From: Thermanaerothrix daxensis
GTDB lineage: Bacteria > Chloroflexota > Anaerolineae > Anaerolineales > Anaerolineaceae
DNA: 64,000 nt
Assembly (NCBI RefSeq): GCF_001306145.1
Contig: NZ_LGKO01000002.1
Span: 1,302,001-1,366,000, forward strand
Direction of reading: 5' to 3'
The notes under the pieces were generated by a model that made no database searches, had not been told where the DNA came from, and was given only the letters and a program-made list of their open reading frames with translations. Positions 9-12,586 of the stretch are shown here, one piece after another. Numbering within the stretch: the stretch's first letter is position 1; each line of letters starts with the position of its first letter. Made by a program: the position numbers and the translations under genes.

Positions 9-1373
9 GTGCTTGTTGCTAGCCTCCATGGATATCGTTTACGCGCTCAACGTTATGGGCGGTTTTCTGAGCGTTTAGTTGATGAGGCTCTAGAACGTGA
101 TCGTTGGTCACGAGAGCAATGGCAAGCCTGGCAAGAAACCCGCCTAAGTGAAATGCTAGAGGTAGCGGCGAAGCAAGTCCCTTACTACCGTGAGCATTGG
201 GAGAGGCGACGGAGGCAGGGGGATAATGCTTCATGGAGCTATTTGGAAAACTGGCCCGTTCTCAAGAAGGATCCAATTCGTCAAAATCCCAAGGCGTTTG
301 TTGCGGATGGGGCAAATCTTCAATCCCTGATTGAGGAGCATACCAGTGGAACTACCGGGACACCCCTGACGTTGTGGCGCAATTTGGAAACCGAGCGTCA
401 ATGGTATGCCCTCTATGAGGCGCGCGTACGACGCTGGAATGGATTCTCATACCGCGATCGCTGGGCTATCCTGGGAGCACAGCCTATAGTACCGGCTGCA
501 CAACGACGTCCACCGTTTTGGGTGTGGAATGCAGGGTTAAATCAACTCTACCTTTCTGCCATTCACCTGAGCGAAGATTTCATTCCCTTCTACATTGAGG
601 CACTTTGGAAGCATCGGGTCCGTTACTTGTTGGGTTATCCCTTTGCATTGGCGATACTCGTTCGCTTGGCGGAGAAGCATGCGCTGGATTTGCCTGTGTT
701 GGAAGCCGTTATCACAAATTCAGAAATTTTACTTCCCGAAGTGAGGGAAATTCTTTCCCGAGGCTTTAAGTGCCGAGTGATTGATACGTATGGGATGTCA
801 GAGACAGTTGCAGCAGCCAGCGAATGTCGGTCGGGTCGGATGCATGTTTGGCCAGATGCAGGAGTGGTTGAAATTTTGAAAGATGAAGAGGACAAACCAG
901 CGGGAAGAAACGAAACGGGACGACTGGTTCTAACAGGATTGTTAAATCCGGTGATGCCTCTAGTCCGGTATGAAATTGGGGATCGAGGGTGCTGGGCGCT
1001 AGAGCCCGCTATCTGTGAGTGTGGAAGGCAAATGCCGGTGCTGGCTCAAATCAGCGGACGTCTGGATGATGTGCTATTATCGCCGGATGGTCGGCGCATT
1101 GATGCTGTCATTGCAGTTGTTTTTAAAGCAGATCTCCCCATTCGGGAAGCCCAGGTTATTCAAACTGCATTGGATCATTTGGAAATACGAGTTGTTCCTG
1201 AACCGGGATTTTCGGATAGCGATGTTAGTACTCTGGTTTCGCGTGTGAAGAAGATCACCGGTGACTCAATGCATGTGGAAGTTACCAGGGTGGGTTCTAT
1301 CCCACGAGGTCCGAACGGGAAATTTAGATTCGTCATTTCTATGTTGAATACACCTACCCCACTTTCGCTTTAG
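9..1373 (+). CDS. CapK/PaaK-like adenylate-forming enzyme (5' end may lie outside window)
   Basis: This is a member of the phenylacetate-CoA ligase/CapK branch of the ANL adenylating superfamily. The AMP-binding P-loop TSGTTGTP is at residues 112-119, the YGMSE motif at 261-265 and YEIGDRG at 321-327. CapK-type proteins next to glycosyltransferases are thought to activate or attach acyl or aryl groups during capsule or exopolysaccharide synthesis; the substrate cannot be read here. The GTG at position 9 is the first usable start, but the frame is open to the window edge and CapK proteins usually have a few more N-terminal residues, so the true start may be upstream. The next gene follows after about 20 bp, which suggests one polysaccharide operon. 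The family call is firm; the reaction is not. Confidence 0.85.
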   Translation: MLVASLHGYRLRAQRYGRFSERLVDEALERDRWSREQWQAWQETRLSEMLEVAAKQVPYYREHWERRRRQGDNASWSYLENWPVLKKDPIRQNPKAFVADGANLQSLIEEHTSGTTGTPLTLWRNLETERQWYALYEARVRRWNGFSYRDRWAILGAQPIVPAAQRRPPFWVWNAGLNQLYLSAIHLSEDFIPFYIEALWKHRVRYLLGYPFALAILVRLAEKHALDLPVLEAVITNSEILLPEVREILSRGFKCRVIDTYGMSETVAAASECRSGRMHVWPDAGVVEILKDEEDKPAGRNETGRLVLTGLLNPVMPLVRYEIGDRGCWALEPAICECGRQMPVLAQISGRLDDVLLSPDGRRIDAVIAVVFKADLPIREAQVIQTALDHLEIRVVPEPGFSDSDVSTLVSRVKKITGDSMHVEVTRVGSIPRGPNGKFRFVISMLNTPTPLSL

Positions 1374-1392
1374 ATCGGAATTGAAGACACAT

Positions 1393-2412
1393 ATGAAAGC
1401 CCAAGATTGCCCCTTTGTATCCATTGTGATGCCTGTACGAAACGAAGGACCCTATATCCAGCGTAGTTTGGGGGCCGTTCTGGATCAAGACTATCCCCAG
1501 GAATGCGTTGAAATTCTCGTCGTAGATGGGATGTCTGAGGATGGTACGCGTGAATTTATTCTTGAACAGCAGAAAATCCATCCTCACGTGCGCTTGCTTG
1601 AAAATCCCGGCAAGATTGTACCCAAAGGGCTAAATATTGCTATCGCCAATGCCAAGGGAGAGATATTCATTCGGGTAGATGGGCATTGTGTCATTGCCAA
1701 AGATTATGTTCGCCGTTGTGTAGAGGCATTGCAGCATGAACGGGTCGCTGGTGTGGGGGGGCCAATGGAGACCATTGGAGAAACGCCAGTAGCCCAAAGC
1801 ATCGCTTTGGCAATGTCCTCACCATTTGGTGTGGGGAATTCGGCTTTTCGTATCCGGGTAAATAAGCGTCGTTATGTGGATACGGTTCCTTTTCCGGCCT
1901 ATCGAATGAGCACGCTTCAGGAAGCCGGGCCGTTCGATGAAACTCTGGTGAGAAATCAGGACGATGAGTACAACTACCGTCTTCGCGCAATGGGGGGAAA
2001 ACTACTTCTGAGCCCGGATATACGATCAAAGTACTACAGTCGAAGCTCTCTAGGTTCGCTTTGGCGCCAATATTTTCAATATGGATTTTACAAAGTCCGC
2101 GTTTTATATAAACACCCAACCCAAATTAGCCTGAGGCAACTCGTTCCTCCCGCCTTTGTAGGTGGTTTGCTGGGGTTATTGGTTCTCTCTATGTTCGGGG
2201 AGATCTTCCGCTATGGCTTGTTGGGGTTTCTCGTACTCTATGGCCTTCTCAACCTGAGCACATCGTTGGTTTTGTCTGCTCGGCATGGTTGGGAGCATAT
2301 GCTGCGTTTGCCCCTGGCTTTTGCTATTTTACATGTGGCTTATGGATTGGGGTTCTGGGCAGGTCTGTATGACCTAGTACGTCATTTGTTGAGAAAGAAA
2401 ACAAGCCATTGA
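1393..2412 (+). CDS. family 2 glycosyltransferase with C-terminal membrane segments
   Basis: A 339-residue inverting GT-A glycosyltransferase. The N-terminus shows the GT2 nucleotide-binding start (VSIVMPVRNEG), the VVDGMSEDGT loop, a DxD-like RVDGH near residues 94-98 and a QDDEYNYRLR motif in the acceptor/catalytic region. The last third has three hydrophobic segments, as in ExoA/SuccA-type enzymes that act on lipid-linked sugars at the inner membrane. A TTG at 1381 is an alternative start, but the ATG at 1393 gives the conserved N-terminus directly. It sits between a CapK-like enzyme and a phosphoglycosyl transferase, so it probably extends the lipid-linked oligosaccharide. Donor and acceptor sugars are unknown. 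Confidence 0.85.
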   Translation: MKAQDCPFVSIVMPVRNEGPYIQRSLGAVLDQDYPQECVEILVVDGMSEDGTREFILEQQKIHPHVRLLENPGKIVPKGLNIAIANAKGEIFIRVDGHCVIAKDYVRRCVEALQHERVAGVGGPMETIGETPVAQSIALAMSSPFGVGNSAFRIRVNKRRYVDTVPFPAYRMSTLQEAGPFDETLVRNQDDEYNYRLRAMGGKLLLSPDIRSKYYSRSSLGSLWRQYFQYGFYKVRVLYKHPTQISLRQLVPPAFVGGLLGLLVLSMFGEIFRYGLLGFLVLYGLLNLSTSLVLSARHGWEHMLRLPLAFAILHVAYGLGFWAGLYDLVRHLLRKKTSH

Positions 2413-2475: not shown

Positions 2476-4479
2476 ATGGAAAAAGTGATTTATGCAAGCG
2501 ATCCCGAAAAATCGGGGACGCGAGTGGGTGTTTCTGTCGTGCGTCAGATTGATGATTGGTTAAGTAGGATAAGAGACATAATAATTTCGGGGTTAGGGAT
2601 GATTTTCCTTTCCCCGTTTTTCCTGCTTGTTGTGCTCATGATTCGGCGGGATTCTCCAGGCCCAATATTTTACAAGGGGCCACGAGTTGGAAAGAACGGG
2701 AGGGTCTTTAAGATTCTTAAGTTTCGCACAATGTACGAGCATCCCACCTCGTTCGAAGGCGCACGCGTGACTGCGAAAGATGATCCCAGAATCACCCCTC
2801 TGGGTCGTTTTTTGCGAGAGACCAAACTCAATGAATTGCCGCAATTGTGGAATGTGTTCATTGGGGATATGAGCCTAGTAGGGCCAAGACCAGAGGACCC
2901 CGATATTGCTGCCCGCTGGCCCGAAGATATTCGCCGCGAAATTCTTTCGGTGCGCCCGGGGATTACTAGCCCGGCTTCAGTGTTGTATCGCAATGAGGAG
3001 GAAATGCTCCAATCCCGTAATGTGATGGAGCGTTACCTCTGGGATATTCTACCCAGCAAGTTGCGGCTGGATCAGTTATACGTTCGCAACCGAAGCATTT
3101 GGACGGATTTTGATGTGCTGTTTTGGACAGCTGTCGTGTTACTTCCGCGCTTGAAGAATTATGTGGTTCCTGAACATCTGTTGTATTGGGGACCGTTGGC
3201 GCGTTTTCTAAATCGTTATCTGATCTGGTTCCTGGCTGATTTTGTGGTGGCTTTTTTTGCCATCGGCATTGCGGGGGTGTTGCGACGTCTTAGTGGTCCA
3301 CTGGATTTGGGGATTGAACTTTCACTGGGAATTGCTTTTATCATCGCAATGATGTTTAGTCTGATCAATGCTCTGACGGGCATTAATCGGGTGGAGTGGT
3401 CACGGGCAGGTGCCTCTGAGGCGATTGATCTGGCAGTTTCTACAGGGTTGGTGACTCTGATTCTCTTTCTGATTAATCTCTTCTTGCCCAATGGCACTCT
3501 CTTACCTCCGATTGTTCTAGTTGCTGCGGGAATGTTTGCCTATATCGGTTTTGTTGCTGTTCGCTATCGAAATCGGGTGATCACAGGGCTAGCCGAACGA
3601 TGGTTGCGCGTGCGAGGTGATCGGGTGAAGAGCCTTGGAGAGCGAGTGCTGATCGTTGGGGCAGGACAAACGGCACGATTCGGTTTGTGGTTACTCCGGA
3701 ATGGAGATCTTTCAAAAGCGTTTACACTGGTCGGCTTTGTGGACGATAACCCCCGTAAGATCGGTGCCATGGTAGAAGGCCTGCCCGTTGTTGGGCGGAC
3801 CGATCAGATTCCCGCCCTTGTTCAAAAACACGATGTGGGTTTGATCCTATTTGCTATCAGCGATATTCGACCAGACCATAGCGAACGCATTTTGACGTTA
3901 TGTCGTCAGCCAGGAGTGCGTTTGATCATGATGCCGGAGGTCATGGATACTCTGAGAGCTCATTTCCCGGTGAGCGAACAAAGCCGTGAAGAGCTGGCGG
4001 AAAAAGTATTAAGAAACACACTTTATGATCGCCTTACTAATGTATATAACCAGCAGCATTTTATGCGTTTACTTGAGCGCGAGGCACAACGCGCTCAACG
4101 TTACCACAACCCGCTTTCTCTGATAATTTTCAAAGTCTCGTATCCCTGGCCTGATGAAGCTACCCGGGCTGCTTCGGTAACGGCTCAGATCCTGAAGGCA
4201 GTTGCTGAACGCACCTTGCGGGATATTCGTGAGGTAGATGCCATAGGACGATTGGAGGAAAGTGTTTTTGGGGTCCTTTTGCCTGAAACATCTATTGATG
4301 GAGCCAACCTTGTGGCGGAACGTTTACAGGTACGGTTGTGCAGCGCGCCAGTTTGGACTGACCGCGGCCCGATTAGCGTTGAAGTGGGAATGGGAGTGGC
4401 GTGTCTGGATGATGATGGCGGTCACGAGGGTGTTTTTGAGCGAGCCTATCAAGCCATGAAAATAGCAGTAAATGCGTGA
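2476..4479 (+). CDS. domain-permuted phosphoglycosyl transferase with Rossmann and degenerate GGDEF domains
   Basis: A 667-residue fusion (residue numbers below count from the upstream ATG at 2464). Residues about 33-225 are a bacterial sugar-transferase (monotopic PGT) domain, with a re-entrant hydrophobic segment at 40-60 and the family block ELPQLWNVFIGDMSLVGPRP at 124-143. Four transmembrane segments follow (about 252-272, 286-304, 322-340, 345-364), then a CoA-binding/Rossmann domain with GAGQTA at 399-404, as in the N-terminal half of WbaP. Residues 517-671 match a GGDEF fold (LYDRLTNVYNQQHF), but the signature position reads LEESVF, so cyclase activity is unlikely. The enzyme should load the first sugar phosphate onto undecaprenyl phosphate. 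Start 2476 is preferred over 2464 because GGAGG lies 5 nt before it. Confidence 0.85.
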   Translation: MEKVIYASDPEKSGTRVGVSVVRQIDDWLSRIRDIIISGLGMIFLSPFFLLVVLMIRRDSPGPIFYKGPRVGKNGRVFKILKFRTMYEHPTSFEGARVTAKDDPRITPLGRFLRETKLNELPQLWNVFIGDMSLVGPRPEDPDIAARWPEDIRREILSVRPGITSPASVLYRNEEEMLQSRNVMERYLWDILPSKLRLDQLYVRNRSIWTDFDVLFWTAVVLLPRLKNYVVPEHLLYWGPLARFLNRYLIWFLADFVVAFFAIGIAGVLRRLSGPLDLGIELSLGIAFIIAMMFSLINALTGINRVEWSRAGASEAIDLAVSTGLVTLILFLINLFLPNGTLLPPIVLVAAGMFAYIGFVAVRYRNRVITGLAERWLRVRGDRVKSLGERVLIVGAGQTARFGLWLLRNGDLSKAFTLVGFVDDNPRKIGAMVEGLPVVGRTDQIPALVQKHDVGLILFAISDIRPDHSERILTLCRQPGVRLIMMPEVMDTLRAHFPVSEQSREELAEKVLRNTLYDRLTNVYNQQHFMRLLEREAQRAQRYHNPLSLIIFKVSYPWPDEATRAASVTAQILKAVAERTLRDIREVDAIGRLEESVFGVLLPETSIDGANLVAERLQVRLCSAPVWTDRGPISVEVGMGVACLDDDGGHEGVFERAYQAMKIAVNA

Positions 4480-4527
4480 TTAACCTTCAAGAACAGATTG
4501 AGTTCAACTTTAGGAGAAGTTTCATTG

Positions 4528-5529
4528 ATGACAACGGAAAAGGTGTTAACGGGGAAGCGTGTCCTGGTAACTGGAGCGGCGGGATTTATAGGGAGTCATC
4601 TGGTTGAGCGCTTGCAGAATCTCGGCGCCCAGGTACGCGCATTTGTGCGTTATACCTCGCGCGGTGATGAGGGTTGGCTGAATACACTCTCTGCGGAGCA
4701 TAAGCGAGGATTAGAGATTGTCTTTGGAGATTTGCGTGATCCCAATGCAGTGCGTCGGGCAGTGGCTGACACACACATAGTATTCCATCTGGGAGCCTTG
4801 ATCTCAATCCCTTACTCATATTTACATCCCTATGAGGTAGCCGAGGTCAACCTTATGGGCACCCTTAATGTATTAATGGCTGTGCGAGACCTGGGGGTAG
4901 AACGATTGATCCATACATCCAGCAGTGAGGTGTATGGTTCAGCCCGTTATGTGCCAATTGATGAGAACCACCCATTGCAAGGGCAATCTCCATATTCTGC
5001 CAGTAAAATCGGCGCTGATATGTTGGCAGAAAGCTTTTACCGGGCTTACAACGTCCCAGTAGTGACCGTGCGACCCTTTAATACATATGGTCCTCGTCAG
5101 TCAGCACGCGCAGTTATTCCCGCGATCATCACCCAAGCGCTGGCGGGGGAAATCATCCGGTTAGGCAATCTCTCTACGCGGCGGGATTTTACTTATGTGA
5201 GTGATACGGTGGAGGGGTTTGTCTTGGCGGCAAGTGTGCCGGGAATTGAAGGAAGTGTTCTAAATTTGGGGTCCAATCAAGAGATTTCGATTGGTGACTT
5301 GTGTCAGTTAATTCTGGCTAAAACAGGAAATTTAGCCCGAGTTGAGCAAGAGGAACAGCGTTTACGCCCTGAGAAATCTGAGGTGGTTCGGCTACTCTCA
5401 GATAATCGCCAGGCGCGCAAATGCCTGGGTTGGGAACCCAAAGTGTCTCTTGAGGAGGGTTTAGATCTAACTATTGAGTGGATTCGAGCCAACTTGCATC
5501 GTTTTCGAGTTGGCTATTATGAGATCTGA
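4528..5529 (+). CDS. NAD-dependent nucleotide-sugar 4,6-dehydratase (LegB-like SDR)
   Basis: An extended short-chain dehydrogenase/reductase. The Rossmann GxxGxxG appears as GAAGFIGSH close to the N-terminus, the catalytic Ser/Tyr/Lys set as TSSSEVYG and YSASKIGAD, and RPFNTYGPRQSARAVIP is the signature of the LegB-type UDP-GlcNAc 4,6-dehydratase subgroup. The expected product is a 4-keto-6-deoxy nucleotide sugar, the substrate for the DegT aminotransferase two genes downstream. AGGAG at 4512-4516 supports starting at 4525/4528 rather than at the TTG at 4498. A Leg-type role rests on motif similarity; no NeuB, acetyltransferase or epimerase partner is present in the window, so a simpler 4-amino-4,6-dideoxy sugar is equally possible. 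Confidence 0.88.
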   Translation: MTTEKVLTGKRVLVTGAAGFIGSHLVERLQNLGAQVRAFVRYTSRGDEGWLNTLSAEHKRGLEIVFGDLRDPNAVRRAVADTHIVFHLGALISIPYSYLHPYEVAEVNLMGTLNVLMAVRDLGVERLIHTSSSEVYGSARYVPIDENHPLQGQSPYSASKIGADMLAESFYRAYNVPVVTVRPFNTYGPRQSARAVIPAIITQALAGEIIRLGNLSTRRDFTYVSDTVEGFVLAASVPGIEGSVLNLGSNQEISIGDLCQLILAKTGNLARVEQEEQRLRPEKSEVVRLLSDNRQARKCLGWEPKVSLEEGLDLTIEWIRANLHRFRVGYYEI

Positions 5530-5563: not shown

Positions 5564-6280
5564 ATGAAGGCCGTGATTTTAGCGGGTGGGAAAGGGACTC
5601 GCCTGGCGCCTTACACGAAAATACTCCCCAAACCCCTGATGCCTGTTGGTGAAATGCCCATTTTGGAGGTTATTGTGCGCCAATTGCGCTGTGCGGGGAT
5701 TGATGAGATTATTTTGACTGTAGGGCATTTGGCTGAACTGTTGCGAGCATTTTTTGGTGATGGTAGTCATTTCGGTCTCAAGATACGCTACAGTTATGAG
5801 GATCAGCCCCTGGGAACTGCGGGTCCCCTAGCATTGGTAGAAGGGCTTGACGAGACTTTTCTGGTGATGAATGGTGACGTACTGACCGACTTGAATGTAC
5901 GAGAACTTGTGCAGTATCACAAGGAAATGGGTGCCAGCGCTACGATTGCCATGCACCAGCGGAAAGTGAAGGTTGATTTGGGAGTCATTCTATGCGATGG
6001 CGGTTCCCGTGTGGTTGGTTATATTGAAAAACCCACCTATGATTATCAGGTCAGCATGGGGATCTACGTGTTTGAGCCCAGGGTATTGAATTTCATTCCC
6101 AGAGGAAAGTACCTGGATTTTCCTAACCTAGTGCACAAACTTCTGGGTGAAGGAGAAAAAGTAGTGGGGTACCTGTTCAATGGGTACTGGCAGGATCTTG
6201 GTCGGCCTGACGACTATGAGCAGGCGACTGAAGATTTTAATAATTTCCGCGAAAAATTTTTACCGGAGATGATGGGATGA
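5564..6280 (+). CDS. sugar-phosphate nucleotidyltransferase
   Basis: A 238-residue nucleotidyltransferase that activates a sugar 1-phosphate with an NTP. It begins with MKAVILAGGKGTRLAPYT, where GGKGTRL is the pyrophosphorylase nucleotide-binding loop; VMNGDVLTD carries the metal-binding Asp, and the sugar-binding region has GYIEKP. The length fits the short catalytic-domain class (RmlA/PtmE-like) without the left-handed beta-helix. An AAGGAGAA box precedes the ATG by a good distance, and the gene overlaps the next by 4 nt (ATGA), so translation is coupled to the aminotransferase. It probably makes the NDP-sugar used by the flanking dehydratase and aminotransferase. The base and sugar specificity cannot be stated. 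Confidence 0.87.
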   Translation: MKAVILAGGKGTRLAPYTKILPKPLMPVGEMPILEVIVRQLRCAGIDEIILTVGHLAELLRAFFGDGSHFGLKIRYSYEDQPLGTAGPLALVEGLDETFLVMNGDVLTDLNVRELVQYHKEMGASATIAMHQRKVKVDLGVILCDGGSRVVGYIEKPTYDYQVSMGIYVFEPRVLNFIPRGKYLDFPNLVHKLLGEGEKVVGYLFNGYWQDLGRPDDYEQATEDFNNFREKFLPEMMG

Positions 6281-7434
6281 GTATTTGGCGAATACCTTTG
6301 GCTGATATTGATTTGGGGGAAGAAGAGAAGGCAGCAGTCACCGCTGTACTTGAACGTCGGTGGCTAACTATGGGGGAAGAAACACAGCAGTTCGAGCAAG
6401 AATTTGCAGATTTTGTTGGGGCTACCTATGCTTACGCGGTGAGTAATTGTACGGTAGCGCTTCATCTCGCTTGTCTGGCATTAGACCTTGGGCCAGGTGA
6501 TGAGGTATTGGTCCCCTCGTTAACCTTTGTTGCCACCGCTGCTGCAGTACGTTATGTAGGAGCAACTCCCCGTTTTGTGGAGATTACCTCGGAAGATGAC
6601 TTAACAATCTCTCCCCAGGCTTTAGTGGATCGAATTACACCACGAACTCGTGCCATTATCGTAATGCACTATGGTGGTTACATGTGTGACATGCCATCAA
6701 TCCTGGAAATTGCGCGAAAGAACAATCTCTTTGTAATTGAGGATGCTGCTCATGCTCCAGGAGCAAGTCTGAACGGGCAAAAGGCAGGGGTATGGGGAGA
6801 TGTAGGGTGCTTCTCTTTCTTTTCAAACAAGAATCTCTCAACAGGTGAGGGTGGGATGATCACCACGCATCGCCAGGATATCGCTGAAAAAATCCGTATA
6901 TTGCGTTCTCACGGGATGACCGCTCTAACCTGGGACCGCCATCAGGGGCATGCCTGGAGTTATGATGTGGTGACATTGGGGTACAACTACCGCCTGGATG
7001 AGTTGCGATCGACCATTGGACGAGTGCAATTACGCAAGTTAGAGGCTAATAACCGACGCCGCGAGGCGCTGGTGGATTATTACCGGCAACGGCTCCGAAA
7101 GGAAGTCCCAGAAGTAAGTATACCTTTTAGTGAGCATCCTGGGCGGTCGGCCTATCATCTGATGCCTGCCTTGTTACCTTTAGGGGTTTCTCGGGTGGAA
7201 TTTATGGAGGCAATGAAGCGTCGGGGAATTCAAACCAGCGTTCATTACCCTCCAGTTCATAAATTCAGTGCTTACCAGGGGATTGCTCTTTTTCATGGGG
7301 GAGGCTTGCCATTAACAGAGAGTGTGGCCCAGCGGGAGGTCACACTACCCCTCTATCCCATGCTTACCGAAACGCAGGTAGACGAAGTTGTGTTGGCGGT
7401 TCGTGAAGCATTGTTAGAAATCCAGCCCGTCTAA
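6277..7434 (+). CDS. DegT/DnrJ/EryC1/StrS-family sugar aminotransferase
   Basis: A PLP-dependent aminotransferase of 385 residues that acts on keto nucleotide sugars. Visible signatures are VSNCTVALHLA near residue 60, VPSLTFVATAAAVRYVGATP, the PLP-contacting EDAAHAPGA and the Schiff-base lysine in FFSNKNLSTGEGGM; the C-terminal half contains VHYPPVHK. With the 4,6-dehydratase upstream it would convert a 4-keto-6-deoxy intermediate to a 4-amino-4,6-dideoxy sugar. It starts inside the stop codon of the nucleotidyltransferase gene, which supports one transcript and one pathway. The amino-sugar identity is an inference. Confidence 0.9.
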   Translation: MSIWRIPLADIDLGEEEKAAVTAVLERRWLTMGEETQQFEQEFADFVGATYAYAVSNCTVALHLACLALDLGPGDEVLVPSLTFVATAAAVRYVGATPRFVEITSEDDLTISPQALVDRITPRTRAIIVMHYGGYMCDMPSILEIARKNNLFVIEDAAHAPGASLNGQKAGVWGDVGCFSFFSNKNLSTGEGGMITTHRQDIAEKIRILRSHGMTALTWDRHQGHAWSYDVVTLGYNYRLDELRSTIGRVQLRKLEANNRRREALVDYYRQRLRKEVPEVSIPFSEHPGRSAYHLMPALLPLGVSRVEFMEAMKRRGIQTSVHYPPVHKFSAYQGIALFHGGGLPLTESVAQREVTLPLYPMLTETQVDEVVLAVREALLEIQPV

Positions 7435-7475: not shown

Positions 7476-9326
7476 ATGCAACCACGAGACTATTTAGTCT
7501 TAATTCGACGTTGGCTTTGGTTGTTAGGTGTTGGAATTTTCGTAGGAGCATTGGGAGGCTTGGTTTTCAGTCTTTTGCAAAAGCCCATCTATCAGGCCTC
7601 AACTAAGGTTATGGTTTTAGGGGTTCCTCAAAGCAACCTTAGCGACATTCTGAATCAGAACAGTGAACTTCTCTCCCAAACCTTTACAGAGTTGTTAGTC
7701 ACGCGTCCGGTATTGGAAGCGGCTTCCGAACGATTGGGTTATTACATCAACAGCAGCCAGGTGCGTGTTCAGCAGGTTAGAGGTGCACAACTCATTCAAA
7801 TTATCGTAGAGGATAGTATCCCCGAAAAAGCGGCTGAAATTGCCAATACGCTGGTGACGGTATTCCTTGAGCAAAACGCAAAAATTCAGTCAAGCCGATT
7901 TTCGGCTTCAGAGGAGAGCCTTCAAGCGCAAATTCAGCAAGTGGAGGCTCAGATTGCTGATTTACAAAGGCAATTGGCTCAAACCTCGGAGCAGTCCAAT
8001 GAAAAACGTATCCAAGATGTGACGAATATCATTTCGGGATTGCAGAGCGAAATTAACCAATTGCAGGCAGATATCGTGCGCATTGAAGCAGAGCGTGACC
8101 CCATTCTAGGGGTAAATTCCTTGGGGCAGCCAGCACGCGTGACACCAACTCTGACCGTTGACCAGCAAATTGAACTAACGCAAAAGCGCAGCCGTCTGGA
8201 TGAATTAAGATCTTTGTTGAGCATCTATCAGCAAATTTACGTCAACCTGACTTTCTCCCCCTCTAATCAAGGTAATTCAAACAGCACAAATAGCCAACTT
8301 CAAGCAGCTCTGGTGCTTTACCAGCAAATCTATGCTAACCTGCTTAGCAACTACGAGGCTATTCGTTTGGCTCGACTGCAAAGTACGCCAGAAGTGGTCC
8401 AGGTTGAGGAGGCCCGTGTTCCATCTCGACCTGTTCGGCCTCAAACCACGACAAATGTGTTATTGGGGGGAATTTTGGGATTGGTGTTGGCAGCGGGTAT
8501 CGTTTTCGTGGTTGAGTATTTGGACGACTCTATACGGAACGGGGAGACGGTAACTCGTGTTTTGGAATTGCCGGTTTTGGGCTACATTAACGAGATAAAT
8601 GGGAAGACTCCCTATGAGGATTATCCGCCTCACGTCATTGCCCAGCCGCGTTCACTTATCACAGAGGCTTTTCGCTCCATTCGCACTAATTTAGAGTTTG
8701 TAGAGATTGACCGTCCCTTGAAAACTTTACTGGTTGGCAGTCCAAGCCCTGATGAAGGGAAGACGACCATAGCGGTCAACCTGGCTATTGTGATAGCGCA
8801 GGCCGGTAAGCGCGTATTGCTGATTGATACGGATATGCGCAGACCTCAGATACATGAACGTTTACGCCTACCTAACCGATTCGGATTAAGCGATATCTTG
8901 CGTGAGCATGGAAGTTTGGATGAAAGTCTGCATCATCTAGCCACGGAGGGGATTGATGTTATCACTAGTGGAATCTTACCCCCTAATCCGGCAGAGGTGC
9001 TTTCTTCGGAACGTATGGCGAAACTGATGGAGGAAGTCGCACAACGATACGACAAGGTTATTTTGGATGGACCGCCGTTCTTAATCTCGGACGCTATTGT
9101 GCTAGCATCGCGTGTGGATGGAGTTCTATTGGTTCTTCGTGCGCGCAACACTTCCCAAAGCGTTGCTCTAGAGGTTTTAGATCAATTGGACCGGGTTAAA
9201 GCCAGAGTGGTGGGGGCAGTGCTCAATCGCGTTCAGGATACCACTTCCAACCATTATTACCGCAGTTTGAAATCCTATACCTACGTATCCAAAGAAACTG
9301 ATGAATTGACGCTTCTGGAAAATTAG
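7476..9326 (+). CDS. polysaccharide co-polymerase / BY-type tyrosine autokinase (Wzz-Wzc fusion)
   Basis: A 616-residue fused chain-length regulator and bacterial tyrosine kinase. Transmembrane segments at about 12-35 and 325-348 flank an extracytoplasmic Wzz domain with a long coiled coil (about 145-250) and two YQQIYxNL repeats. The cytoplasmic kinase has Walker A PDEGKTT (425-431), Walker A' VLLIDTDM (447-454) and Walker B VILDGP (528-533). The tail carries a small tyrosine cluster (Y594, Y595, Y601, Y603) for autophosphorylation. Such proteins control polymer length and export through Wzx/Wzy systems. No Wzx flippase, Wzy polymerase or cognate phosphatase is seen in the window, so those must lie elsewhere or upstream. 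Confidence 0.93.
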   Translation: MQPRDYLVLIRRWLWLLGVGIFVGALGGLVFSLLQKPIYQASTKVMVLGVPQSNLSDILNQNSELLSQTFTELLVTRPVLEAASERLGYYINSSQVRVQQVRGAQLIQIIVEDSIPEKAAEIANTLVTVFLEQNAKIQSSRFSASEESLQAQIQQVEAQIADLQRQLAQTSEQSNEKRIQDVTNIISGLQSEINQLQADIVRIEAERDPILGVNSLGQPARVTPTLTVDQQIELTQKRSRLDELRSLLSIYQQIYVNLTFSPSNQGNSNSTNSQLQAALVLYQQIYANLLSNYEAIRLARLQSTPEVVQVEEARVPSRPVRPQTTTNVLLGGILGLVLAAGIVFVVEYLDDSIRNGETVTRVLELPVLGYINEINGKTPYEDYPPHVIAQPRSLITEAFRSIRTNLEFVEIDRPLKTLLVGSPSPDEGKTTIAVNLAIVIAQAGKRVLLIDTDMRRPQIHERLRLPNRFGLSDILREHGSLDESLHHLATEGIDVITSGILPPNPAEVLSSERMAKLMEEVAQRYDKVILDGPPFLISDAIVLASRVDGVLLVLRARNTSQSVALEVLDQLDRVKARVVGAVLNRVQDTTSNHYYRSLKSYTYVSKETDELTLLEN

Positions 9327-10345: not shown

Positions 10346-12586
10346 ATGTATGGATTAGAATTGAGACGCCTGGTTGGGGCGCTTTCGGTGATAGGTTTGT
10401 TTATCATAATGAGTGTATCTACCGGGAGGGCACAAGGGGCTTGGCGGTTTCCCCTCGTGGAGGCTCAAAGCGTGGGACCGGATGTGTGGTTCATGAGTCT
10501 GCAGACAGATGAAAATCTTAACACCCCTCCAGTTGCGTATGATGATACTTACAGCGTTGAGGAGGACATTCGCTTAATCATTGAGGCCCCTGGTGTATTA
10601 GGCAATGACAGTGATCCGGAGGGGGATACACTCCGTGCGATTAAGGTAAGCGATCCCGCTCATGGCACCCTGGTGCTGAATGCAGATGGGAGTTTCACCT
10701 ACACCCCCAACCTCAATTACTTTGGGGGGGATACTTTCACCTATCGCGCCAACGATGGGCAGGGGGATAGTGACGTAGCCACGGTGAGTATTACGGTTAT
10801 TCCGGTAAATGACCCGCCGGCAGCGAGCTCGCAAGCGGTGACCACAGCCGAGGATACAAGTGTGGAGATCACCCTGACAGCAAGCGATATGGATGGGGAC
10901 AGTCTGACCTACGTTGTTGTGAGTGGACCTACGCATGGGACGCTGAGCGGTTTGATGCCTGTCTTGACCTATACGCCGACAGAGAACTACCATGGCACGG
11001 ATGCCTTTACCTTCAAGGTTAGTGACGGGCAGGTGGATAGCAACGTTGCCACGGTGAGTATTACGATTACCCCGGTAAATGACCCGCCAGTAGCGAACAA
11101 TGATACTTACAGCATCATCGAGGATAGTGTTCTGAATGTTGTGGTACCTGGGGTGCTGCAAAATGATTTGGATGTAGATGGAGATGCTTTGACAGTTCAG
11201 TTGGAGAGTGGTGTGTCTCATGGCACCCTGACGTTAAGTGCAAATGGCAGTTTTGTCTACACCCCAGGTCTCAACTACTATGGGACGGACACCTTTACCT
11301 ATCGTGCTTATGATGGGCAGGCTTATTCAGGGATTGCAAATGTAACCATCAATGTGATTGGAAGTAATGATCCGCCAGTGGCTGTCAATGATGCCTATTC
11401 AATGCCAGAAGATAATGTCTTAACAGTCCTTACCCCTGGTGTATTAGGCAATGACAGTGATCCGGAGGGGGATACACTCCGTGCGATTAAGGTAAGCGAT
11501 CCCGCTCATGGCACCCTGGTGCTGAATGCAGATGGGAGTTTCACCTACACCCCCAACCTCAATTACTTTGGGGGGGATACTTTCACCTATCGCGCCAACG
11601 ATGGGCAGGGGGATAGTGACGTAGCCACGGTGAGTATTACGGTTATTCCGGTAAATGACCCGCCGGCAGCGAGCTCGCAAGCGGTGACCACAGCCGAGGA
11701 TACAAGTGTGGAGATCACCCTGACAGCAAGCGATATGGATGGGGACAGTCTGACCTACGTTGTTGTGAGTGGACCTACGCATGGGACGCTGAGCGGTTTG
11801 ATGCCTGTCTTGACCTATACGCCGACAGAGAACTACCATGGCACGGATGCCTTTACCTTCAAGGTTAGTGACGGGCAGGTGGATAGCAACGTTGCCACGG
11901 TGAGTATTACGATTACCCCGGTAAATGACCCGCCAATGGCTAATAATGATATTGGCTACCGTGCCAGCATCGCCGGGTTAATTGTTGCAGTACCCGGAGT
12001 ATTATTGAATGATGTAGATGTAGATGGAGATGCTTTGACGGTTAGGTTGGAGAGTAATGTATCCCACGGCACCCTGACGCTGAACGCGGATGGTAGGTTT
12101 ACCTACACCCCGAAGGCGGGTTATGTTGGAGTGGACACTTTTACCTATCGTGCCAATGACGGGCAGGTGGATAGCAATCTTGCCACGGTGACCATTGAAG
12201 TTGATGCAGTGCGCCCGAATCCCCCAGATTGGATTTCACCGGTTGGGAATGGGGGGACTTACATCATGAGGGAGAGTGCAGTAACCTTGGGGGTTGCAGT
12301 TACTGATACGGATATTACATCTGTGCGTTTTCTTTGGTATGATGAGGCGACTTCACAATACCGACCAATTGGGCAAGTTAATCAGCACCCCTACACCATT
12401 TCACTTAATTACGCGACTTTACCCTCCAATAAGGAAGTTCAGGTTTTTGCTGAAACCTGGGATAACTTTGGGAATGGGTCGTTGGATACTACGGACAGCA
12501 ACACTTACGCCCAAACAGTGCGCCGCATTTTTATATTTACTACCAGTTTGCGCAATCAGATTTTCTTACCGCTTGTCTTTAGATAG
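10346..12586 (+). CDS. secreted tandem-95 (VCBS/cadherin-like) repeat surface protein
   Basis: A 746-residue exported protein. A signal peptide covers about residues 1-29 (hydrophobic core LVGALSVIGLFIIMSV, then GRAQ). Six Ig/cadherin-like repeats of about 90-97 residues follow (roughly 61-157, 158-246, 247-341, 342-438, 439-527, 528-620), each with NDPP linkers, DxDGD calcium-binding loops and THGTL/GTDTFTY strands. Residues 621-746 form a different domain ending in FLPLVFR, a short hydrophobic tail I have seen on other Chloroflexota exported proteins. Repeats 1-2 and 4-5 are identical at DNA level. It is probably a Ca-stabilised adhesin or surface-layer component. AGGAG lies 6 nt before the ATG. 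Confidence 0.88.
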   Translation: MYGLELRRLVGALSVIGLFIIMSVSTGRAQGAWRFPLVEAQSVGPDVWFMSLQTDENLNTPPVAYDDTYSVEEDIRLIIEAPGVLGNDSDPEGDTLRAIKVSDPAHGTLVLNADGSFTYTPNLNYFGGDTFTYRANDGQGDSDVATVSITVIPVNDPPAASSQAVTTAEDTSVEITLTASDMDGDSLTYVVVSGPTHGTLSGLMPVLTYTPTENYHGTDAFTFKVSDGQVDSNVATVSITITPVNDPPVANNDTYSIIEDSVLNVVVPGVLQNDLDVDGDALTVQLESGVSHGTLTLSANGSFVYTPGLNYYGTDTFTYRAYDGQAYSGIANVTINVIGSNDPPVAVNDAYSMPEDNVLTVLTPGVLGNDSDPEGDTLRAIKVSDPAHGTLVLNADGSFTYTPNLNYFGGDTFTYRANDGQGDSDVATVSITVIPVNDPPAASSQAVTTAEDTSVEITLTASDMDGDSLTYVVVSGPTHGTLSGLMPVLTYTPTENYHGTDAFTFKVSDGQVDSNVATVSITITPVNDPPMANNDIGYRASIAGLIVAVPGVLLNDVDVDGDALTVRLESNVSHGTLTLNADGRFTYTPKAGYVGVDTFTYRANDGQVDSNLATVTIEVDAVRPNPPDWISPVGNGGTYIMRESAVTLGVAVTDTDITSVRFLWYDEATSQYRPIGQVNQHPYTISLNYATLPSNKEVQVFAETWDNFGNGSLDTTDSNTYAQTVRRIFIFTTSLRNQIFLPLVFR
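10587..11089 (+). repeat. 503-bp perfect direct repeat, copy 1
   Basis: Reading it base by base against 11433-11935 I find no mismatch across 503 bp; the offset is 846 bp, which is exactly three repeat domains (282 codons). The match begins at the CCCC before GGTGTATTA and ends at GACCCGCCA. It covers tandem-95 repeats 1-2 of the surface protein. Confidence 0.95.
11433..11935 (+). repeat. 503-bp perfect direct repeat, copy 2
   Basis: Second copy of the repeat at 10587-11089, covering tandem-95 repeats 4-5. The flanking repeats 3 and 6 are clearly diverged from each other, so the identity is limited to this segment. Recombination between the copies would delete exactly three domains and keep the frame. 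Confidence 0.95.

Follow-up and report, generated by a model that had tools for sequence, protein, structure and literature searches.

Near the start of the window, by which we mean the whole stretch of Thermanaerothrix daxensis DNA that was analyzed (64,000 nucleotides), one open reading frame joins a phosphoglycosyl transferase (PGT), a four-helix membrane region, and a Rossmann domain to a GGDEF-like domain. This raises the question of whether its product still initiates the synthesis of an exopolysaccharide and whether the added domain places that step under the control of cyclic di-GMP (c-di-GMP). The original prediction was that of a WbaP with permuted domains, acting at the committed step of polysaccharide synthesis and carrying a dead, c-di-GMP-independent, possibly regulatory GGDEF tail.

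The reading frame is intact, and residues are numbered here from position 2464 (Table 1). The better start is probably the ATG at 2476 that was chosen originally, because GGAGGGAGGT lies directly before it. The order first described, with the PGT domain in front, four predicted membrane helices and a PF13727-type Rossmann domain behind it, and a GGDEF-like domain last, is borne out by Pfam (Bac_transf, residues 35 to 227, 6.1e-56; CoA_binding_3, residues 306 to 491, 5.3e-11; GGDEF, residues 520 to 668, 1.8e-14) and by AlphaFold2. The model of the whole protein has a mean pLDDT of 65.5, with values mostly of 73 to 94 in the PGT part (dipping to 57 at residues 91 to 100), about 51 to 70 in the membrane part, about 65 to 89 in the Rossmann part, and below 50 in the tail, and it contains long helices at residues 244-275, 284-305, 317-339, and 349-383, followed by an alpha/beta unit. 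The best PDB match of the PGT fold is 8e37, a small monotopic PGT (monoPGT) of the PglC type. Modeled alone, the tail reaches a pLDDT of 90.3 and a pTM of 0.83 and matches GGDEF structures in the PDB (PleD, TMq of about 0.77), in agreement with the proposed fold; the alignment used for this model included 23 canonical GGDEF domains, which favors a GGDEF fold.

Table 1. Features of the permuted PGT gene and its surroundings (window positions; residues counted from 2464)
Feature	Position	Strand	Basis or remark
AMP-binding (PaaK-like) protein, upstream in operon	9..1373	+	
Family 2 glycosyltransferase, upstream in operon	1381..2412	+	
Whole reading frame, 671 aa	2464..4479	+	Probable start ATG 2476
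Monotopic PGT domain (PF02397), aa 35-227	2566..3144	+	Pfam
N123-E124, at the place of the monoPGT catalytic Asp-Glu dyad	2830..2835	+	HMMER alignment to WbaP Asp
Four predicted membrane helices, aa 244-383	3193..3612	+	AlphaFold2 model, modest confidence
Rossmann domain (PF13727/DUF type), aa 391-500	3634..3963	+	Pfam and AlphaFold2
Degenerate GGDEF domain, aa 520-668	4021..4467	+	Pfam, model of tail, PDB match
R543	4090..4092	+	Equivalent of PleD R313
FKVSYP, 556-561	4129..4146	+	K557 replaces first metal Asp (PleD D327)
REVD, 589-592	4228..4239	+	I-site RxxD (PleD R359/D362)
EESVF, 598-602	4255..4269	+	At the place of GG[DE]EF
R620	4321..4323	+	Third I-site residue (PleD R390; PelD R402 by analogy)
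LegB-like NAD-dependent 4,6-dehydratase (soluble SDR), directly downstream	4498..5529	+	
Sugar nucleotidyltransferase	5564..6280	+	
DegT-type sugar aminotransferase	6277..7434	+	
Wzz/tyrosine autokinase (Wzc-like) co-polymerase	7476..9326	+	

A frame artefact or an assembly fusion is ruled out, as the PGT-first order occurs in 70 distinct proteins (duplicates removed, told apart by their Rossmann stretch) and the GGDEF tail in 6 of them. A profile search of the window's own family, Anaerolineaceae, gave 50 matches to the permuted type, five of which were partial, and these came from 48 of 147 genomes. In the class sample, 65 of 396 genomes matched at a loose cutoff; 30 of these carry the permuted protein (32 matches with E below 1e-190), and the other matches comprise small PGTs, fusions of larger size, and a fragment. 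A phylum sample of 400 genomes gave matches in 21, of which 20 belong to the same class and were all already present in the earlier samples, and one comes from another class. The complete four-part order was found in five genomes besides that of the window, all six from the window's family, and 64 of the 70 proteins lack the tail: in 34 the chain ends no more than 30 residues after the Rossmann profile (several after only 4 to 16), 24 have other tails of 31 to 90 residues, and 6 have a tail with a CxxC motif. The last are short (L139 to L143 and L153, of the FQCQHCLARY or CQVCLMRG type) and may perhaps form a metal hook, while the short helical tails of some permuted proteins are candidate remnants of a PglF C terminus. 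No beta-hairpin of the WbaP type was seen by eye after the DUF, a region where the model is weak.

The gene lies in what is probably an exopolysaccharide operon of the Wzx/Wzy type, a reading that rests on the Wzc-like protein and on a Wzy_C protein encoded upstream of the permuted gene. The gene product that we call LegB-like scores 417 bits, below the NCBIfam cutoff of 475. A relative of it lies directly downstream and on the same strand in 63 of the 70 permuted loci, and one of the seven loci without it stops at a contig end; in many loci, where the flanks are often only 1.5 kb, the LegB-like gene is followed by a nucleotidyltransferase gene. Just after the exopolysaccharide genes of the window, positions 10346-12586 encode a repeat protein with internal repeats that appear near-identical by eye, which we take to be cadherin-like or VCBS-like.

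What speaks against a simple active enzyme is N123. The catalytic residues of monoPGTs form an Asp-Glu dyad, which in PglC is D93-E94 (PMC12802240), and all members of the superfamily are said to have it, with a covalent intermediate in catalysis (PMC10519829). Among the permuted proteins, 71 PGT sequences were distinct, one of which (fragment L020) stops short of the dyad; all 70 that cover it read Asn-Glu, as does a further truncated member, L019. In 142 rows of other PGTs, Asp stands at this position in 137; the others have Asn (one), His (one, from a viral contig), or a gap (three), so that Asp is found in 137 of the 139 nonpermuted PGTs that cover it. The one Asn belongs to a small PGT (L089:5722-6702) on a contig titled Alphaproteobacteria. 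The dyad is Asp-Glu in all six fusions of a PGT to a PglF-type dehydratase, and Asp also stands in L443, a protein from another class in which the start of the SDR domain is still in frame; in these samples, therefore, the change to Asn accompanies the loss of the dehydratase. E124, K86, R118, R142, and the DX12P motif of the re-entrant helix (D38 and P51) are invariant in 16 aligned sequences, and the first four residues and D38 are at least 97% conserved in the larger set. By eye, from motif context, K86, R118, and R142 correspond to the substrate-orienting K59, R88, and R111 of PglC. Three further residues, D217, W152, and K121, are fixed in the permuted family and not elsewhere.

Judged from these residues, the PGT-like part would have either a changed chemistry or a regulatory or scaffolding role as a pseudo-enzyme. 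The first alternative, to which we give appreciably less than an even chance, is an active PGT in which undecaprenyl phosphate (Und-P) attacks the NDP-sugar directly, or in which the part of the nucleophile is played by Glu124 or by a different acid such as D217; the sugar donated may be the 4-amino-4,6-dideoxy product of the neighboring cassette. Strict conservation of the Asn and of the other motifs, the restriction of fixed D217 and W152 to the permuted family, and the surroundings, with the LegB-like gene in nearly all loci and the nucleotidyltransferase and DegT genes in the window, all point in this direction, but a dyad that is said to be universal and a catalysis that proceeds through a covalent intermediate (PMC10519829) argue against it. 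The second alternative, which we find somewhat doubtful, is that the PGT domain is inactive: the protein would then act in the membrane as a scaffold or an inhibitor, either by binding NDP-sugar and Und-P or by pairing with a canonical PGT whose gene lies elsewhere, and the tail, where there is one, would tune this function. This would agree with the division between Asn in the permuted proteins and Asp in the others, with the two canonical Asp-Glu PGTs encoded elsewhere in the genome (L002 and L003), and with a chain that has lost its dehydratase and whose cyclase site is dead; however, the invariance or near invariance of the other catalytic residues would be unusual for a dead enzyme, and within the window, a whole-genome protein search at E up to 0.001 detected no PGT besides this one. 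That the protein performs the committed step is thus itself uncertain, given the Asn in place of the catalytic Asp, which the original prediction had passed over. A search of the open-licence PMC literature found no paper on the catalytic dyad of an inactive monotopic PGT, and the invariant Asn offers a test of whether monoPGTs truly need an Asp nucleophile.

At the other end of the chain, the letters LEESVF and IFKVSYP were quoted correctly, and the dead cyclase site that was read from them is confirmed by the residues; with EESVF for GG[DE]EF and K557 for D327, an active cyclase is ruled out. The roles and numbers of PleD residues used for the tail positions are assumed here, and R543 stands at the position of PleD R313, a residue of the secondary I-site, an equivalent that is missing from one of the two groups of tails (group B). 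GG[DE]EF is lost in all six tails, the equivalents of PleD N335, G343, D344, G369, and K440 are kept in none and that of D327 in one, and catalytic and GTP positions as a whole are kept in 0 to 3 of the six. The equivalents of R359, D362, and R390 are kept in all six, and the spacing of the I-site residues is that of PleD, with an offset of 230 throughout. Reference rows were taken from 70 places in the six tail-bearing genomes, 62 of them with an intact signature (one protein, L004/L210, is counted twice among the 62). Of 36 GGDEF positions that are conserved to at least 70%, 8 are kept in all six tails, and the chance that the three named I-site positions would be among them is 0.008, ignoring kinship. 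Because RxxD is the default in catalytic GGDEF domains (56 of the 62 intact rows, with all three residues in 41 of the 62), retention of the I-site may be inertia or structural, and the signal in the tails is one of retention under decay. The two groups of tails are 16 to 25% identical to each other, so this retention does not stem from recent copying, and with only about two tail lineages the statistics are weak. In the TM-Rossmann tree, the six tailed proteins do not form one clade (p-AU 0.019), which rejects a single gain with simple descent and leaves either two separate gains or one gain combined with losses, while the GGDEF tree joins the six tails weakly (79), together with two other degenerate domains.

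The same pair of features is known from PelD, in which RxxD and a later Arg bind c-di-GMP (PMC7112168; for P. aeruginosa PelD, PMC8461298) and alanine changes at the trio in the Bacillus cereus protein leave no detectable binding (PMC7112168). As the I-site is kept and GG[DE]EF is lost in all six tails, as in PelD, sensing of c-di-GMP by the tail appears likelier than the c-di-GMP independence that was originally proposed, whereas the idea of a possible regulatory tail on an exopolysaccharide-initiation protein gains support. All six genomes also encode intact GGDEF domains (109 GGDEF matches in total, 7 to 40 per genome, tails included), and PilZ and EAL matches are each found in four of the six.

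An alternative that we find somewhat doubtful is that the tail is a decayed GGDEF domain kept without a ligand, only for dimerization or stability. In WbaP, the DUF dimer owes most of its contact to the hairpin that follows the PF13727 domain (PMC10942596), and the tails of the permuted family sit about where this hairpin would be; that unrelated tails (those of 31 to 90 residues and those with CxxC) occur near this place suggests that the site may need a dimer element, and one protein, L198, seems to have lost its GGDEF tail. Against this, the I-site residues are kept as a set where the active site is gone, and RxxD is likewise kept in most degenerate GGDEF domains that are fused to Wzz. One such fusion (L269:2119-3219) is encoded in G002, one of the six tail-bearing genomes, where genes for a small PGT and for a Wzy_C protein lie nearby. 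A search for Wzz-GGDEF fusions in the class sample matched 24 of 298 genomes, with 18 of 25 matches spanning both domains and no match in the window's own genome; in the 12 tails that were read (L269 and L272 to L282, some from the same genera), GG[DE]EF is present in none and RxxD in 10. In the class Anaerolineae, as judged from sequence, degenerate GGDEF tails are attached to two different components of the exopolysaccharide pathway. We found no paper on Wzz-GGDEF co-polymerases, on a PGT-GGDEF fusion, or on exopolysaccharide and c-di-GMP in Anaerolineae in the open-licence PMC literature. A further degenerate GGDEF tail, with RDNQF as its signature and RxxD kept, was seen on a BTAD-domain transcriptional regulator (L252:113-1474, in G546).

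As to where the arrangement came from, six proteins (L144 to L148 and L150; 853 to 1030 residues from stop to stop) contain a PGT, four membrane helices, a Rossmann domain, and an SDR dehydratase in a single frame. Among these fusions, Pfam was applied to L144 and L148; the SDR domain (Polysacc_synt_2) is present in both and in L149, where separate genes for a small PGT and for a dehydratase resembling PglF adjoin, and the window protein has no Polysacc_synt_2 Pfam match at E up to 0.1. L146, L147, and L150 lie beside a relative of the DegT aminotransferase. In the TM-Rossmann tree, which holds 36 of the 64 tail-less and all six tailed proteins, the permuted proteins group with L144, L148, and L149 (SH-aLRT 99), and a smaller tree with 12 tail-less and the six tailed rows gives the same grouping (SH-aLRT 97). 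In the PGT tree, again with 12 tail-less and six tailed rows, they join five of the fusions (SH-aLRT 86) and a 99% branch stands between them and every one of the 20 WbaP rows; the PGT of the sixth fusion, L148, falls on the WbaP side. Both trees suggest, with moderate confidence, that the permuted family consists of PGT-PglF/CapD fusions that lost their dehydratase. The LegB-like dehydratase gene downstream in 63 of the 70 loci fits this origin. A true shuffling of WbaP, as originally envisaged, is quite improbable, for although the same three domain families are involved and a clade uniting the permuted proteins with WbaP is not rejected by an AU test of the TM-Rossmann half (p 0.178), the 99% branch separates the PGT halves, and the TM-Rossmann half is nearest to two PGT-PglF fusions and to the PglF-like protein beside a small PGT. 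Additions of sugar-modifying and receiver domains to small monoPGTs have reportedly been described (a 2025 paper attributes this to O'Toole, PNAS, 2021), so fusions of a PGT with a dehydratase may have been published before. The N-terminal domains that WbaP shares with the functionally unrelated PglF dehydratases are called "puzzling" in PMC10942596; in the permuted proteins, as in the PGT-PglF fusions, a PGT and this 4TM-Rossmann module are parts of one chain.

The explanation that we favor, and to which we give about an even chance, is a PelD-like c-di-GMP input on an exopolysaccharide-initiation protein that descends from a PGT-PglF fusion and whose own catalysis is noncanonical or lost. 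A small PGT would have been fused to a membrane dehydratase of the PglF/CapD type and the dehydratase domain then lost, as the trees suggest, while the 4TM-Rossmann part would have been kept as a nucleotide-sensing, dimer-forming regulator of the kind known from WbaP, in which the PF13727 domain binds uridine nucleotides and UMP inhibits with an apparent IC50 of 4.1 uM (PMC10942596). The free C terminus would in six of the genomes have come to carry a degenerate GGDEF domain, which lacks the residues for making c-di-GMP, has kept its I-site, and most likely serves to bind c-di-GMP in the manner of PelD. The ligand, bound at the I-site, might pair two chains, which is the most economical proposal, or move the Rossmann domain, and either event could switch the PGT-like part between states. 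We also entertain, as unlikely, a wider proposal: a clade of monoPGTs that starts glycan synthesis with no Asp nucleophile, arose from a PGT-PglF fusion, passed the dehydratase step to the LegB-like gene, and is in some members switched by c-di-GMP through a PelD-like tail.

Posttranslational control of the Wzx/Wzy-type pathway is described as incompletely understood (mBio 2025, PMC12802240). If the wider proposal is true, c-di-GMP would act directly at the first step of such a pathway, and if the tail senses c-di-GMP, the initiation of sugar chains would come under a biofilm signal. By title and start of abstract, we found no report in the open-licence PMC literature of direct c-di-GMP binding to a Wzy-dependent initiating glycosyltransferase. 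The tail, with its parallel in the Wzz-GGDEF fusions, is a concrete and mutable candidate for the point at which c-di-GMP acts on the beginning of what is probably a Wzx/Wzy-type pathway.

Among known systems, PelD of Pseudomonas and Bacillus cereus, a degenerate GGDEF receptor for c-di-GMP in Pel synthesis, shares with the tailed proteins four membrane helices, a cytoplasmic domain, a C-terminal degenerate GGDEF domain, and an exopolysaccharide operon, as well as RxxD with a later Arg (here R589, D592, and R620); unlike them, it has a GAF domain, has no PGT or Rossmann domain, and belongs to a synthase-dependent pathway. WbaP and other large monoPGTs share the PGT, 4TM, and PF13727 families, the membrane location, and a place at the start of exopolysaccharide or O-antigen synthesis, but their order is 4TM, DUF, and PGT, whereas the permuted protein has the PGT first, Asn for the nucleophile, an added GGDEF domain, and a different place in the PGT tree. 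PglF/CapD dehydratases share the 4TM-Rossmann module, and the PGT-PglF fusions share the order of PGT, 4TM, and Rossmann domain; both have the SDR dehydratase domain that the permuted family lacks, and the fusions have Asp-Glu rather than Asn-Glu. Small monoPGTs of the PglC type have the same PGT fold with the Asp-Glu dyad and no extra domains. Finally, in the Myxococcus EpsZ/EpsW pair, a signaling domain likewise acts on an initiating PGT, the receiver protein activating EpsZ and being proposed to promote the EpsZ dimer (PMC12802240), but there the receiver is a separate protein, and the transferase, unlike the permuted protein, has the canonical domain order and dyad.
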